Below are positions 21,418-26,493 of a stretch of DNA of 64,000 nt, one piece after another. The position numbers and the translations under genes were made by a program. Below the pieces are notes generated by a model. That model did not search any database. It saw nothing but the letters and a program-made list of their open reading frames with translations, and was not told the origin of the DNA. Within the stretch, counting starts at the first letter, position 1; each line of letters opens with the position of its first letter. Origin of the DNA: Acrocarpospora catenulata (GTDB lineage: Bacteria; Actinomycetota; Actinomycetes; Streptosporangiales; Streptosporangiaceae); contig NZ_JAHCST010000027.1 in the NCBI RefSeq assembly GCF_018476525.1, forward strand, positions 1-64,000. Direction: 5' to 3'.

Positions 21418-22659
21418 GTGCCCGCTCTCCTCGCCGTAAGCGCGTCCTCGGATTCGGTCGCGATCCTTTTCCTCGAACTAGGCGGAGTCATCCTCGGCCT
21501 CGGTGTGCTCGGCGCACTGGCACTGCGCGTCGGCATCTCTCCCATTCCCCTCTACCTGATCGCCGGTCTCGCCTTCGGCACGGGCGGCATCTTGCCGCTG
21601 GCCACCAGTGAGAACTTCATCGAAGTCGGCGCCGAGCTGGGCGTCATCCTGCTGCTGCTGACTCTCGGCCTGGAGTACAACGCCGACGAACTGGTGACCA
21701 GCCTCAAGAGCAACGCCCCGGGCGGCCTGGTCGACCTGGTGCTCAACGCCGCGCCGGGCGCGATCGCCGCGCTGTTGCTCGGCTGGGGGCCGGTCGCGGC
21801 CGTGGCCATGGCCGGGGTGACCTACGCCACCTCCTCCGGCATCACCGCCAAGGTCCTGTCCGACCTGGGGTGGATCGGTAACCGCGAGACCCCGGTGGTG
21901 CTCTCGCTGCTGGTCTTCGAGGACCTGACCATGGCCCTCTACCTGCCCATCCTGACCGCGCTGCTGGCCGGGGCCGGGCTGGTGACCGGCTCGATCACGG
22001 TGGCCATCGCGCTGGGCACGGTGACCGTGGTCCTGGTGATCGCGCTGCGCTTCGGCAACTGGATCGAGAAGTTCGTGGCCAGCCCCAACTCCGAGGTGCT
22101 GCTGCTGAAGGTGATCGGCCTGGCCCTGCTGGTGGCCGGCATCGCCCAGCAGCTCCAGGTCTCGGCGGCGGTCGGGGCGTTCCTGGTGGGCATCGCCCTG
22201 TCCGGGGAGCTGGCGCACGAGACGCGGGCGCTGCTGATGCCGATCAGGGACCTGTTCGCGGCGGTGTTCTTCGTCTTCTTCGGCCTGCAGACCGACCCGA
22301 CGAAGATCCTCCCGGTGGCCGGCCTGGCCGCGCTGCTCGCCCTGGCCAGCATGATCACCAAGCTGCTCACCGGCGCGTACGCGGCCCGCCGGGCCGGGAT
22401 CGCCAAGGCCGGGCGCATCCGGGCCGGTATCGCGCTCGTCCCCCGCGGTGAGTTCAACATCGTCATCGCCGGGCTGGCGGTGGCCGCCGGCGTGCACCCG
22501 GACCTGGGCCCGCTGGCCGCCGGCTACGTGCTGATCCTGGCCGCCTTCGGGCCGCTGGCGGCGCGGGGCATCCAGCCGCTGGTGAACGCCATCGCGCTGC
22601 GCAAGCAGAGCAGCCCGGTGCCGTCGGAGCGGGGCATCTCCGAAACGGGGTATCCCTAG
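21418..22659 (+). CDS. khtU: KhtU-like CPA2 cation:proton antiporter
   Basis: This 413-aa integral membrane protein has about 12 hydrophobic segments and belongs to the CPA2 monovalent cation:proton antiporter family. Features include VGISPIPLYLIAGLAFGTGG, the discontinuous-helix region VTYATSSGITAKVLSDLG, LVFEDLTMALYLPIL with the conserved acidic residue, and late GRIRAGIALVPRGEFNIVIA. It probably exchanges K+ (or Na+) for protons across the plasma membrane under control of the preceding TrkA_C protein. It lacks its own C-terminal RCK domain, consistent with a two-component antiporter. The start is GTG 21418. The stop lies 4 bp inside the convergent P450 gene. Confidence 0.85.
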   Translation: MPALLAVSASSDSVAILFLELGGVILGLGVLGALALRVGISPIPLYLIAGLAFGTGGILPLATSENFIEVGAELGVILLLLTLGLEYNADELVTSLKSNAPGGLVDLVLNAAPGAIAALLLGWGPVAAVAMAGVTYATSSGITAKVLSDLGWIGNRETPVVLSLLVFEDLTMALYLPILTALLAGAGLVTGSITVAIALGTVTVVLVIALRFGNWIEKFVASPNSEVLLLKVIGLALLVAGIAQQLQVSAAVGAFLVGIALSGELAHETRALLMPIRDLFAAVFFVFFGLQTDPTKILPVAGLAALLALASMITKLLTGAYAARRAGIAKAGRIRAGIALVPRGEFNIVIAGLAVAAGVHPDLGPLAAGYVLILAAFGPLAARGIQPLVNAIALRKQSSPVPSERGISETGYP

Positions 22660-23843
22660 ACCGACACCTGCAGCGACTCCAGGCCGCGGATCACGTAACC
22701 GGGCTTCCAGGTGGGCTCCTCGACCAGTTCCAGGTCCAGGTCGAGGAGCGCGCCGAAGGACTCGGCGAGCTCCACCCGGGCCAGCGGCGCGCCCAGGCAG
22801 AAGTGGATGCCCGCGCCGAAGGAGATGTGCGGGTTGTCGGCCCGGCCCACGTCCAGCCGGTCCGGTTCCGCGAACGCCTCAGGGTCCCGGTTGGCCGAGC
22901 CGAAGAGCAGGGCGACCTCGACGCCGCGCGGGATGCGCACCCCGCCGACCTCGATGTCCTCAAGCACCCAGCGCTCGAACATCTGGAGCGGGGTGTCGTA
23001 GCGCATCAGCTCCTCGATCGCCGCGGGCAGCAGCGAGCGGTCGGCGCGGAGCCTGGCGAGCTCGCCGGGGTTGCGGAAGAGCGACCACCAGCCGTTGCCG
23101 GTGACGTTGACGGTGGCCTCGTGCCCGGCGTTGAGCAGCAGCACACAGGTGCCGATCAGCTCGTCCTCGGTCAGCTCGACCCGGGTGAGCGCGCTGATCA
23201 GGTCGTCCCCGGGGTTCTCCCGGCGCAGGCGGCTGAGTTCGCGCAGGTAGTCGGCGAACTCCTTGGCGGCCCTGACCGCCGTGTGCTGGGCCTCCAGGGT
23301 GGGGTTGAGCTCGTACATGCCGCAGATGTCGGCCGACCAGGGCCGGAGCAGGGGGCGGTCGGTCTCGGGCACGCCGAGCATCTCGGCGATGACGGTGACC
23401 GGCAGCGGCTCGGCCACCTCGGCGATCAGGTCGCCGCCGCCGCGTTCGGCCAGGCCGCGGGCGAGTTCGGCGGCCATCGCGGCGATCCTGGGGCGGAGCG
23501 ACTCCACCATCCGGGGCGTGAACGCCTTGGAGACCTGGCGGCGCAGATGGGTGTGGACCGGGGGTTCCACGTCCAGCATGCCCGCCCTGACCACCCGCCA
23601 GAACGGTTCCTGGAAGTCCGGCTCCGCTTCCCTGCCGAACTCCTCGTGGCCGGCCACGTGCAGGTAGGACCGGCCCAGCCTGCGGTCCCTGAGCAGCGCG
23701 TTGACGTCCTCGTGGCGGGCGATCAGCCACTGTCCTGTGGGCTCGAAGAAGCTGACGGGGCGCTGGTCGCGGAGCTCCCGGTACGCCGCGTAGGGGTGGG
23801 CCACGAACTCGGGATTCCAAGGATCAAACTGCACAAAACACAT
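22656..23843 (-). CDS. Cytochrome P450
   Basis: This 395-aa soluble class I P450 shows the I-helix motif LLLNAGHEATVN near residue 240 (AGxE(A)T type), the K-helix ExxR in EELMRYD, and the heme loop FGAGIHFCLGAPLARVEL, whose Cys ligates iron near residue 345. QVSKAFTPRMVE and EPPVHTHLRRQ fit bacterial CYP families such as CYP107/CYP105, but the family and substrate cannot be set from sequence alone. No ferredoxin is adjacent. The start is ATG 23843 with no Shine-Dalgarno sequence; alternatively GTG 23834, placed exactly 7 nt after TAGCAT (23847-23842), could be a leaderless start. It is divergent from the SAM-riboswitch gene and convergent with khtU. Confidence 0.9.
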   Translation of the reverse strand: MCFVQFDPWNPEFVAHPYAAYRELRDQRPVSFFEPTGQWLIARHEDVNALLRDRRLGRSYLHVAGHEEFGREAEPDFQEPFWRVVRAGMLDVEPPVHTHLRRQVSKAFTPRMVESLRPRIAAMAAELARGLAERGGGDLIAEVAEPLPVTVIAEMLGVPETDRPLLRPWSADICGMYELNPTLEAQHTAVRAAKEFADYLRELSRLRRENPGDDLISALTRVELTEDELIGTCVLLLNAGHEATVNVTGNGWWSLFRNPGELARLRADRSLLPAAIEELMRYDTPLQMFERWVLEDIEVGGVRIPRGVEVALLFGSANRDPEAFAEPDRLDVGRADNPHISFGAGIHFCLGAPLARVELAESFGALLDLDLELVEEPTWKPGYVIRGLESLQVSV

Positions 23844-23908
23844 GCTAGAGGGCGGGATGGGTGCTGTATCCGGCGTATCCTGCCGAGAATTTCGTCGCAA
23901 CGGTGGGC

Positions 23909-23914
23909 TATAGT
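23909..23914 (+). promoter_or_regulatory. -10 box for the riboswitch transcript
   Basis: TATAGT at 23909-23914 places a transcription start near 23921, three bases before the riboswitch aptamer. No good -35 was seen at 16-18 nt spacing. Confidence 0.5.
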
Positions 23915-23920
23915 CTCGAC

Positions 23921-24072
23921 TCAGGTCATGAGTGCCAGCGCACAGCCCCGGCTTGCTGGCCGGCAACCCTCCGTCCGTGGCGGGGTGCCCCGGGTGAGGA
24001 CCGGGTCCGGCGCGGGGTGCGCCGGGCAAGCGCGGACTCCTGAGGGGGTCCCATGACCCCAGGAGGCGTCCC
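23921..24072 (+). ncRNA. SAM-IV-type riboswitch with SD-sequestering hairpin
   Basis: The stretch from GGTCATGAGTGCCAGCG (23924-23940) through CCCCGGCTTGCTGGCCGGCA and CCCTCC to GGGGTGCCCCGGGTGAGGACC (ends 24002) reproduces the SAM-IV/SAM-I core order: P1, the k-turn-like and CGGCAACC-type elements, and the closing GGTGA(G)GACC. GTCCGGCG...CGCCGGGC (about 24005-24026) is a further stem, as SAM-IV has. A hairpin pairs CTCCT with AGGAG (24037-24041/24061-24065) and GGGGTC with GACCCC (24045-24050/24055-24060), masking the AGGAGG of the next gene. GGTCATG (23924-23930) is perfectly complementary to CATGACC (24052-24058), a possible anti-sequestor. High SAM would then reduce translation. Confidence 0.85.
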
Positions 24073-25299
24073 ATGTCCGCCACGCTCACTCTCGGCCTGC
24101 CCGCCGTCGTCGGCTCCGATCTTCAGGCGCCGTTGCGGGACGGGCGGCTGGTGCCGTACGCGAACCTCGACTACGCGGCGAGCGCGCCCTGTCTGGAGAC
24201 GGTCAGGGACGCGGTGGCCGCCGCCCTGCCCGCCTACTCCAGCGTGCACCGGGGGGCCGGATACGCCTCCCAGGTCACCACCTGCCGCTACGAGCGGGCC
24301 AGGCAGACCGTGGGCGCGTTCGCCGGCGCCAGGACCGACGACGCGGTGCTCTTCGTGCGCAACACCACCGACGCGATGAACCTGCTGGCCAGGAGCCTGC
24401 CCGAGGGCACCACCGTGATCGTCTTCGACACCGAACACCACGCCACCCTGCTGCCCTGGCCCTCCCCCGTACGGCTGACGCCCCCCGCCCTGCCCGGCGA
24501 GGCCATCCGGGCCGCCGACGAGGCGCTGGCCGGCGTCGAGGGACCCGCGCTGCTGGTGGTCACCGCGGCCTCCAACGTGACCGGGGAGCTCTGGCCGATC
24601 GCCGGTCTGGCCCACGTCGCGCACCGGCACGGGGCCAGGATCGCGGTGGACGCGGCGCAGCTGGCCCCGCACCGGCCGCTCAACGTGGCCGCGCTCGACC
24701 TGGACTACGTGGCCTTCTCCGGGCACAAGCTCTACGCGCCCTTCGGAGCGGGCGTGCTGATCGGGCGGCCGGACTGGCTGACCGCGGCGGAGCCGTACCT
24801 GAAGGGCGGCGGGGCGGTGCGCGCGGTCGGCGAGACGGCGGAGTGGAGCGCGGACCCGCAGGCCAGGCACGAGGCGGGCACCCCCAACGTGCTGGGCGCG
24901 ATCGCGCTGGCGGCGGCCTGCGAGACGCTCGCCGCCACCGGCTGGGCGGCGCTGATCCGCGAGGAGGAACGCCTGCTCGGCCGCCTGCGGGCGGGGCTGG
25001 CCGCCCTCCCCCGGGTGCGCGAGCTGGCACTCTGGCCGGGCGACCATCCCCGGGTGGGCATCGTCTCCTTCACCGTCGAGGGGCGGACCGCCCGGGAGGT
25101 GGCCGAGATTCTCGCCGGCGAGCACGGCATCGGCGTCCGGGACGGGAAGTTCTGCGCCCATCCGTTCGTCCGGCACCTGCTCGGGGTCGAGGACGGCGGC
25201 TGTGAAGACGGCACCGCGAGCGCGGTCCGGGCCTCGATCGGCCTGGGCAGCACCGAGGAGCACGTCGACCGGCTGCTGGCCGCCCTGCGCGCGCTTTGA
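24073..25299 (+). CDS. Cysteine desulfurase-like class V aminotransferase under SAM-riboswitch control
   Basis: This 408-aa PLP-dependent class V enzyme has its PLP Lys at residue 219 in AFSGHKLYAPFG, with DAAQ upstream as the pyridine-binding Asp. A Cys at residue 361 in GVRDGKFCAHPF aligns with the active-site Cys of SufS/CsdA-type desulfurases (RTGHHCAQP type). This suggests release of sulfur from cysteine or a related C-S compound, but it is not a housekeeping SufS: no suf genes are adjacent. The start is ATG 24073, six bases after AGGAGG (24061-24066), which the upstream riboswitch can hide. Control by SAM points to sulfur-amino-acid metabolism. The NuoD-like gene follows within 6 bp. 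Confidence 0.8.
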   Translation: MSATLTLGLPAVVGSDLQAPLRDGRLVPYANLDYAASAPCLETVRDAVAAALPAYSSVHRGAGYASQVTTCRYERARQTVGAFAGARTDDAVLFVRNTTDAMNLLARSLPEGTTVIVFDTEHHATLLPWPSPVRLTPPALPGEAIRAADEALAGVEGPALLVVTAASNVTGELWPIAGLAHVAHRHGARIAVDAAQLAPHRPLNVAALDLDYVAFSGHKLYAPFGAGVLIGRPDWLTAAEPYLKGGGAVRAVGETAEWSADPQARHEAGTPNVLGAIALAAACETLAATGWAALIREEERLLGRLRAGLAALPRVRELALWPGDHPRVGIVSFTVEGRTAREVAEILAGEHGIGVRDGKFCAHPFVRHLLGVEDGGCEDGTASAVRASIGLGSTEEHVDRLLAALRAL

Positions 25300-25305
25300 C
25301 GCATC

Positions 25306-26493
25306 GTGGCGTCGTGGCAGCATGGAAAGGTGTCGCATGAGGTAGTCGTTGGGGTCGGCGCGGGCGCCGCGGCGGTGCCCGGCAAGGAACTGGCCACCGA
25401 GGACATGATCCTCAACATCGGCCCGCAGCACCCGTCCACGCACGGCGTGCTCCGGCTCCGCCTCACCCTGGACGGGGAGCGGATCGCCACCGCCGAGCCG
25501 ATCGTCGGCTACATGCACCGGGGTGCCGAGAAGCTCTTCGAGGTGCGCGACTACCGCCAGATCATCGTGCTGGCCAACCGGCACGACTGGCTGTCGGCGT
25601 TCGCCAACGAACTCGGCGTGGTGATCGCGGTGGAACGCATGCTCGGCATGGAGCCGCCGGTGCGGGCGGTCTGGGCGCGCACCCTGCTGGCCGAGCTCAA
25701 CCGGGTGCTCAACCACCTGATGTTCCTCGGCTCCTACCCGCTGGAACTGGGCGCGATCACGCCGGTCTTCTACGCCTTCCGGGAGCGGGAGACCATCCAG
25801 GCGGTGATGGAGGAGATCTCCGGCGGGCGGCTGCACTACATGTTCAACCGGGTGGGCGGCCTCAAGGAGGACCTGCCGCTCGGCTGGCTGGACCGCACCA
25901 CCCAGGCCGTGGCCGAGGTGCGCCGCCGGTTGCCCGACATCGAGCAGCTGATCAGCGGGAACGAGATCTTCCTGGCCCGCACCACCGGCGTGGGCGTGCT
26001 GGACCGCGAGACCATCCTTCAGTACGGCGTGAGCGGCCCCATCGCCCGCGCCTCCGGCCTCGACCTGGACCTGCGGCGGGACGAACCATACCTGGCCTAC
26101 GGGGAACTCCCGGTCAAGGTGGTCACCCGCTCGGCCGGGGACTGCCACGCCCGCTTCGAGGTCCTGCTCGACCAGCTCAAGGTCTCCCTGGACCTGGCCG
26201 ACGCCTGCGTGGCCCGGCTCAGGGAGCTCCCGCCCGGGCCGATCAACCAGCGGCTGCCCAAGATCCTCAAAGCGCCGGAGGGGCACACGTACGCGTGGAC
26301 CGAGAGCCCCCTCGGGCTCAACGGCTACTACCTGGTCTCGCGCGGCGAGAAGACCCCGTGGCGGCTGAAGCTGCGCAGCGCCTCCTACAACAACGTCCAG
26401 GTGCTGCGCGAGATGCTGCCCGGCCACCTGGTGGCCGACATGGTGGCCATCCTCGGGTCGATGTTCTTCGTCGTCGGCGACATCGACAAGTAG
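25306..26493 (+). CDS. NuoD-like paralogue (NADH-quinone oxidoreductase 49-kDa subunit family)
   Basis: This 395-aa protein belongs to the NuoD/Nqo4/NDUFS2 family: [19 protein letters not shown] with the quinone-site His, [11 protein letters not shown] with Arg at residue 72, the Tyr in [20 protein letters not shown] with His, and the C-terminal [21 protein letters not shown]. At [11 protein letters not shown] a Glu replaces the Asp of the usual LDLGA. No other nuo genes are adjacent, so it is a stand-alone paralogue of the kind seen in Streptomyces. Its partner complex is unknown. The start is GTG 25306, six bases after the previous stop; GTG 25330 is an alternative. Linkage to a MidA-type methyltransferase is notable. 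Its stop abuts the convergent DUF3180 gene. Confidence 0.85.

Follow-up and report, generated by a model that had tools for sequence, protein, structure and literature searches.

A SAM-IV riboswitch predicted to act on the translation of a SufS-like class V enzyme in Acrocarpospora catenulata

A stretch of 64,000 nucleotides of Acrocarpospora catenulata DNA (hereafter referred to as the window) contains a SAM-IV riboswitch followed by a gene for a class V PLP enzyme that is SufS-like but is not SufS. We propose that the riboswitch probably shuts off translation of this stand-alone enzyme when SAM is plentiful. The association of SAM-IV with a cysteine-desulfurase-like gene is not new, since it is in print for Streptomyces (PMC8079986, Table 3, and the transcript data of PMC8269248). 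The new content is the logic of the expression platform, the removal of a link to NuoD and a lead concerning a leader ORF. The features of the region, all on the forward strand, are as follows.

23909..23914, +, −10 box TATAGT, from the sequence and the hexamers of relatives
23924..24038, +, SAM-IV riboswitch aptamer (RF00634, 106.1 bits, cut-off 38)
23924..23927, +, P1 5′ strand GGTC, with partner GACC at 23999-24002 in the predicted SAM-bound form (cmscan structure line)
23973..23978, +, PK-2 strand GTCCGT within the P3 loop, complementary to 24032-24037
24032..24037, +, PK-2 3′ strand GCGGAC (the aptamer tail), which pairs with the P3 loop
24034..24040, +, proposed anti-sequestor strand GGACTCC, which overlaps PK-2 and can pair with 24045-24051; its CTCC also faces the Shine-Dalgarno (SD) sequence in the hairpin (duplex swap tests, 0/5000)
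24037..24065, +, SD-masking hairpin, CTCCT 24037-24041 with AGGAG 24061-24065 and GGGGTC 24045-24050 with GACCCC 24055-24060 (fold; arm swap test)
24052..24058, +, CATGACC, perfect 7-nt complement of P1 5′ GGTCATG at 23924-23930 (sequence; lineage-limited)
24061..24066, +, SD sequence AGGAGG
24073..25299, +, class V PLP enzyme, SufS-like but not SufS (PF00266, 254 bits; sufS model, 253.1 against a cut-off of 475.1)

Results

Identification of the aptamer and its promoter

The original prediction had recognized a SAM-IV-type aptamer from the sequence alone, and the assignment was put to a covariance-model search. RF00634 (SAM-IV) matched positions 23924-24038 over the whole model (1-116) with an E-value of 1.6e-18, its 106.1 bits standing against a gathering score of 38. 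It was the sole Rfam match at or above the gathering score within the 64-kb window; a scan of 23700-24300 at E up to 5 gave, besides SAM-IV, just one sub-threshold miRNA match. RF00634 is the lone SAM-clan family retained at 23924-24038 by cmscan, which for overlapping members of clan CL00012 (RF00162 among them) keeps the best match alone and does not display the scores of the losers. The window RNA resembles the known SAM-IV of the cryo-EM work (PMC6890682) in its full-length model match, its P1 and PK-2 strands and its actinobacterial host; no difference from the aptamer as presented there was found, and section 7 of that paper describes PK-2 at the aptamer 3′ end.

For comparison, a set of 155 distinct leaders was assembled, each with a class V match, an aptamer motif, a tail and a start codon. 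Left out were loci in which the class V match did not reach E ≤ 1e-30 and loci that had no aptamer motif within 3 mismatches, no CAAGCGCG-type tail or no start codon; identical leaders were removed as well. The PK-2 strand (GCGGAY) forms at least five of six pairs with the P3 loop in 144 of the 155. Judged by sequence, the window RNA is a true, ordinary SAM-IV riboswitch, and it is expected to bind SAM. The model ends 34 nt before the ATG of the SufS-like gene, for which a role in sulfur metabolism is suggested. The founding SAM-IV paper is reportedly that of Weinberg et al. 2008, which may treat expression platforms.

The putative −10 box TATAGT was also where it had been claimed to be, 15 nt 5′ of GGTCATG, and 73 of 78 related loci have a hexamer with at most one mismatch from it, 13–16 nt 5′ of the aptamer. 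Such a box would place the transcription start a few nucleotides from the aptamer. A promoter scan of 23750-24150, which requires a −35 box too, found none. On the opposite strand a divergent cytochrome P450 gene (PF00067) occupies 22656-23843, with ~80 bp from its likely ATG to the aptamer.

Conservation of the riboswitch–gene pair

An aptamer motif was found upstream in 78 of 80 close relatives, the remaining two being at contig edges. In a class-wide draw of 345 genomes, SAM-IV was present in 226 and the enzyme gene (E ≤ 1e-60) in 130. The best 24 of these 130 gene places (L139-L162) all had the aptamer motif upstream. Among the remaining 106 places, 66 had SAM-IV 65–598 nt upstream; for the other 40, 39 stretches of 1 kb were scanned with cmscan and 30 contained SAM-IV. 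SAM-IV thus lies upstream in 96 of 105 tested gene places, the 24 best being counted apart and G354 left out. No SAM-IV was found within 1 kb upstream at 9 of the 105 (G294, G164, G259, G345, G412, G238, G157, G176 and G308); the G308 stretch reaches less far upstream because the enzyme match begins at residue 141.

SAM-IV is listed before SLIV_26975, a 'cysteine desulfurase' of S. lividans (PMC8079986, Table 3), a SAM-IV premature transcript is reported before the class V enzyme gene CRV15_21540 of S. clavuligerus (transcript data of PMC8269248), and SAM-IV is stated to regulate metXY in Actinomycetales (passage in PMC4239095). SLIV_26975 and CRV15_21540, as annotated in these sources, share the riboswitch class and the enzyme kind with the window, a likeness drawn by annotation. 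In the Streptomyces-like genus g56 (32 genomes in the 345-genome draw), the enzyme matches are 54–59% identical to the window protein; g56 leaders have an ORF of six codons between the riboswitch and the enzyme gene, whereas the window leader has none. SAM-IV and the enzyme gene are a well-conserved, partly known pairing.

The expression platform

A hairpin at 24037-24065 masking AGGAGG had been drawn in the original prediction, and folding of 24037-24072 returned it there, with the pairs CUCCU:AGGAG and GGGGUC:GACCCC, at −17.2 kcal/mol and a z of only −1.1. Inclusion of the tail (24027-24072) brought the values to −23.2 kcal/mol and z −2.25. Since the hairpin by itself has so modest a z-score, the case for the platform rests on comparison rather than on energy. 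Masking by the platform folded alone is partial: the mean pairing probability of the SD is 0.66 in the window and 0.51 over 59 Streptosporangiaceae-type leaders, with group means from 0.51 to 0.87. A much shorter platform without SD hairpin is seen in G063, of the same genus, and in Herbidospora/Acrocarpospora loci, so the platform evolves fast. At one locus of another same-genus relative (G145, L326), the leader joins what seems to be the interior of the class V gene, through either a deletion or a misassembly.

The simplest reading, and that of the original prediction, is that P1 5′ GGTCATG against CATGACC alone decides whether the SD is masked or free, the tail having no role. The perfect 7-nt complementarity between 24052-24058 and 23924-23930 is indeed present, and ATGACC or CATGACC occurs in 24 of the 59 Streptosporangiaceae-type leaders against ~0.5% in shuffles. 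Sorted by longest P1 complement, these 59 divide into CATGACC 6, ATGACC 18, TGACC 4, GACC 14 and none 17, and all 155 platforms into CATGACC 7, ATGACC 20, TGACC 18, GACC 45 and none 65. The P1 partner GACC is thus present in just 90 of the 155 platforms (4 of 25 in g56), and none of the 30 leaders with GGTCACG has the matching GTGACC. The P1:CATGACC helix is lineage-limited and enriched in Streptosporangiaceae-type leaders. While the 7-nt match stands, the sufficiency of P1 alone does not hold up against CATGACC in 7 of 155 platforms and the covariation of a second helix, presented below, and we consider exclusive control by P1 improbable.

The second helix would be formed by the tail and the 5′ arm of the hairpin, and it and the hairpin exclude each other. 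Tail strands are typically GGAYCCC, GGGCTCC or GGACTCC and overlap PK-2. In a swap test, the energy of each leader's own strand with its own platform was compared with that of strands taken from other leaders (5000 permutations). With each distinct tail entered once (n = 51), own pairs reached −13.57 kcal/mol against −12.35 for swapped ones (sd 0.26), a difference attained in 0/5000 permutations. Permutation within groups gave, combined, 0/5000 and z 4.4, while the four segments used as controls stayed at z 1.0, −0.5, 1.2 and −1.8; single groups ranged from 14 to 1388 of 5000 and were weak in three of five (325, 1121 and 1388). Swapping the hairpin arm instead (n = 84) gave −14.10 for own against −12.78 for swapped pairs (sd 0.22), 0/5000, and again 0/5000 within groups combined, with single groups at 0 to 968 of 5000 and three of five weak (342, 365 and 968). 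The two tests are not independent because the arm was placed by the tail, and permutation leaves some relatedness, so the swap results are to be taken as supports, not as probabilities. Matched changes are found in individual leaders: tail GGGTTCGC goes with GCGGACCC in L125, GGATCCCG with CGGGATCC in L083 and GGATCG with CGGTCC in L116. From these comparisons, the tail and the hairpin 5′ arm make up what we consider a second alternative helix with covariation support.

The best site for the tail was arm-like in 137 of the 155 leaders, SD-like in 14 and other in 4. Eleven of the 14 SD-like cases fall among the 59 Streptosporangiaceae-type leaders, and one, L093, is in fact an arm that the pattern miscounted. 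In leaders of the SD-like kind, masking of the SD may fall to the tail, and these cases made us slightly less confident in the proposed model than we had been. The tail could then be a plain anti-SD strand that pairs with the SD once PK-2 opens, pairing with the arm being secondary or absent. CTCC is present in the tail of most Streptosporangiaceae-type leaders, and their 11 SD-like sites include the short platforms L035, L036, L107 and L145. Such an arrangement would, however, mean that expression is off at low SAM, the reverse of what sulfur supply calls for, and the preponderance of arm-like best sites speaks against it as well; we regard it as very unlikely.

We favour, as probable, a model in which both strands switch. 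With SAM bound, P1 (23924-23927:23999-24002) and PK-2 (23973-23978:24032-24037) would hold both control strands, and the hairpin 24037-24065 would mask AGGAGG. Without SAM, the tail GGACTCC (24034-24040), which has GGAC in common with PK-2, would pair with GGGGTCC (24045-24051) in the arm of the hairpin. The P1 strand GGTCATG, now released, would do so with CATGACC (24052-24058) next to that arm, and the resulting helices would abut and leave the SD single-stranded. In the window, the segments 24034-24040:24045-24051 directly adjoin the helix of P1 5′ with CATGACC. A constrained fold accommodates both SAM-free helices next to each other and leaves the SD unpaired at −83.4 kcal/mol; the sequestor fold, which is the minimum without constraint, reaches −86.1. 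Pseudoknots and SAM are left out of these energies.

A leader ORF in Streptomyces-like genomes and the level of control

A pattern search of the 345 genomes found the six-codon ORF in 25, all g56 and one per genome, and the reversed pattern in none of the 345. The ORFs map just 3′ of SAM-IV, before the class V start. Inspection added six further g56 genomes (MNQRMR in three, MIQRMR, MSKRMS and MSQHMP), so that 31/31 g56 genomes having the SAM-IV/enzyme pair contain an ORF of six codons, the fifth of which is Met (L189-L213, L320-L324, L251). It reads MSKRMR in 22 of the 31 and is a variant in 9; the 32nd genome (G401) has no enzyme gene at E ≤ 1e-60. In the g56 leaders displayed, SD-like bases precede the ORF and a GGGC..GCCC hairpin follows it. 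The string MSKRMR gave no literature match.

These leaders bear on whether control might be mainly transcriptional, the leader RNA ending early, through Rho or some atypical terminator, if masking of the SD leaves no ribosome behind the polymerase. The premature transcription unit at S. clavuligerus CRV15_21540 is among the most extreme read-count falls in the transcript data of PMC8269248, and the g56 genomes have both the leader ORF and the hairpin after the switch. In the window, however, the SD itself lies within the hairpin, with no leader ORF intervening, and no terminator-like site was found in 23750-24150. A transcription terminator in the window leader is discounted on that basis, and mainly transcriptional control is in our view a poor prospect. 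The translational platform put forward in the original prediction is what the SD hairpin and the terminator search support.

Properties and predicted role of the enzyme

The protein had been described as a class V enzyme outside the Suf group that has an active-site-type Cys, and profile searches and alignment bear this out. On the SufS family model TIGR01979 it scores 253.1 bits, about half the cut-off of 475.1; four orthologues score 246–291 bits, and a canonical SufS elsewhere in the genome scores 521.8. H123, K219, C361 and R386 are invariant in 22/22 aligned sequences, the Cys aligns with that of E. coli SufS/CsdB chains (phmmer), and the closest solved sequences are SufS/CsdB. With catalytic His, PLP Lys, active-site Cys and Arg in place, the protein is predicted to be a group II cysteine desulfurase-like enzyme. 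It shares PF00266 and these four positions with the SufS/CsdA group II cysteine desulfurases and differs from them in reaching half the sufS cut-off, in its SAM-IV control and in having no Suf-type gene among the scanned window neighbours.

A recurrent partner gene was sought in 20 neighbourhoods of other genera (L214-L233), where no non-enzyme protein cluster occurred in more than three. Company of another kind was seen elsewhere. The second SAM-IV of the window genome (contig C94, 69.3 bits, with deviant P1; L188 4011-4122 and downstream, L318, G000) precedes genes for a peptide-type ABC binding protein (SBP_bac_5), a permease, an ATPase and luciferase-like monooxygenases (Bac_luciferase). 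In G193, two SAM-IV copies lie back to back, with the enzyme gene leading off on one side and luciferase-like monooxygenase ORFs on the other, and in G412, one of the places without SAM-IV, the enzyme gene is near ABC, luciferase-like and CMD genes. From SAM control and this ABC/luciferase-like company, we infer that the enzyme serves to obtain sulfur from organic compounds at low SAM; it probably supplies sulfur for cysteine and methionine synthesis, together with a cluster for organosulfur uptake and oxidation.

Alternatively, the enzyme could be a second Fe-S or thio-modification desulfurase and not a sulfur scavenger, as its invariant catalytic residues and SufS/CsdB as closest solved sequences would allow. 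Against this stand the canonical SufS elsewhere in the genome, the lack of a partner cluster in more than 3 of the 20 neighbourhoods, and the SAM control and ABC/luciferase-like genes, which point to sulfur supply. We judge such a function unlikely and retain the role in sulfur acquisition.

Two upstream regions have further elements. In L286 (2177-2428), one SAM-IV copy points away from the class V gene; behind it come an ORF ending in RRHVDLVRVASCTCR (read by eye) and then luciferase-like monooxygenase ORFs. We take this ending to resemble actinobacterial cysteine leader peptides, so that sensing of SAM and of cysteine may be arranged in series there. In G179 (L255/L287), the class V SAM-IV and a divergent SAM-I (S-box) share one upstream region; on the S-box side follow a 2OG-Fe(II)/WelO5-like oxygenase and a match to cyclodipeptide synthase that falls below the cut-off.

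The downstream NuoD-like gene

A NuoD paralogue 6 bp downstream had been placed in the sulfur/SAM network together with the enzyme. The distance is right: the NuoD-like ORF starts with GTG 6 bp past the class V stop, an alternative start being a second GTG at 25330, after GGAAAGG. Its product scores 389.1 against 459.35 for TIGR01962 and 379.1 against 360 for NF004739, and a higher-scoring NuoD (565.8 bits) is encoded elsewhere in the genome. Membership in the network fares worse. Among the 80 close-relative loci, a NuoD-type neighbour occurs in Streptosporangiaceae only. At 21 Nonomuraea-type loci the NuoD match starts 0.67–0.99 kb past the enzyme match, and in 12 of the 21 a gene of one cluster intervenes; the single example scanned (L076) is DoxX-like and on the opposite strand. 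Ten genomes from eight other genera that have the SAM-IV/class V gene were compared: in four, a 77–80% identical NuoD-type orthologue lies away from the enzyme (in G309, 2.2 Mb from it on the same contig), and in the other six there is just a 38–41% match, presumably canonical NuoD. This distribution does not support NuoD as an operon partner, and we regard the NuoD-type paralogue as a neighbour, not a partner, of the SAM-IV/enzyme system.

Discussion

The isolated SAM-IV aptamer is described as undergoing no significant conformational change upon SAM binding (structural account in PMC6890682), so switching must arise from competition with the platform. In the part of the SAM-IV literature covered, no description of reuse of the PK-2 3′ strand as an anti-sequestor was found. 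Translational control by a SAM riboswitch, as proposed for the window, has a parallel in the SAM-I riboswitch of Xanthomonas, which according to PMC7270179 acts mainly on translation; the system presented there differs in having a SAM-I aptamer and in its operon (met).

A more tentative extension, possible but rather doubtful, is that the PK-2 strand itself would be the switching strand, with a diversified output: it would act directly on the SD in Streptosporangiaceae, and in g56 the target of control would be the conserved leader ORF of six codons (MSKRMR or a variant), codon 5 always being Met. If true, this would be a two-input leader that senses SAM together with translation or charged Met-tRNA, and the gene under it would encode an uncharacterised cysteine-desulfurase-like enzyme serving the use of organosulfur compounds.

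The analysis draws attention to a large SufS-like family of Actinomycetes tied to SAM, five scanned members of which pass no NCBIfam cut-off. It offers a concrete model, open to mutation, of how SAM-IV may act on translation via its second pseudoknot, and the g56 leader ORF behind the same switch makes the leader-ORF lead testable in laboratory Streptomyces.
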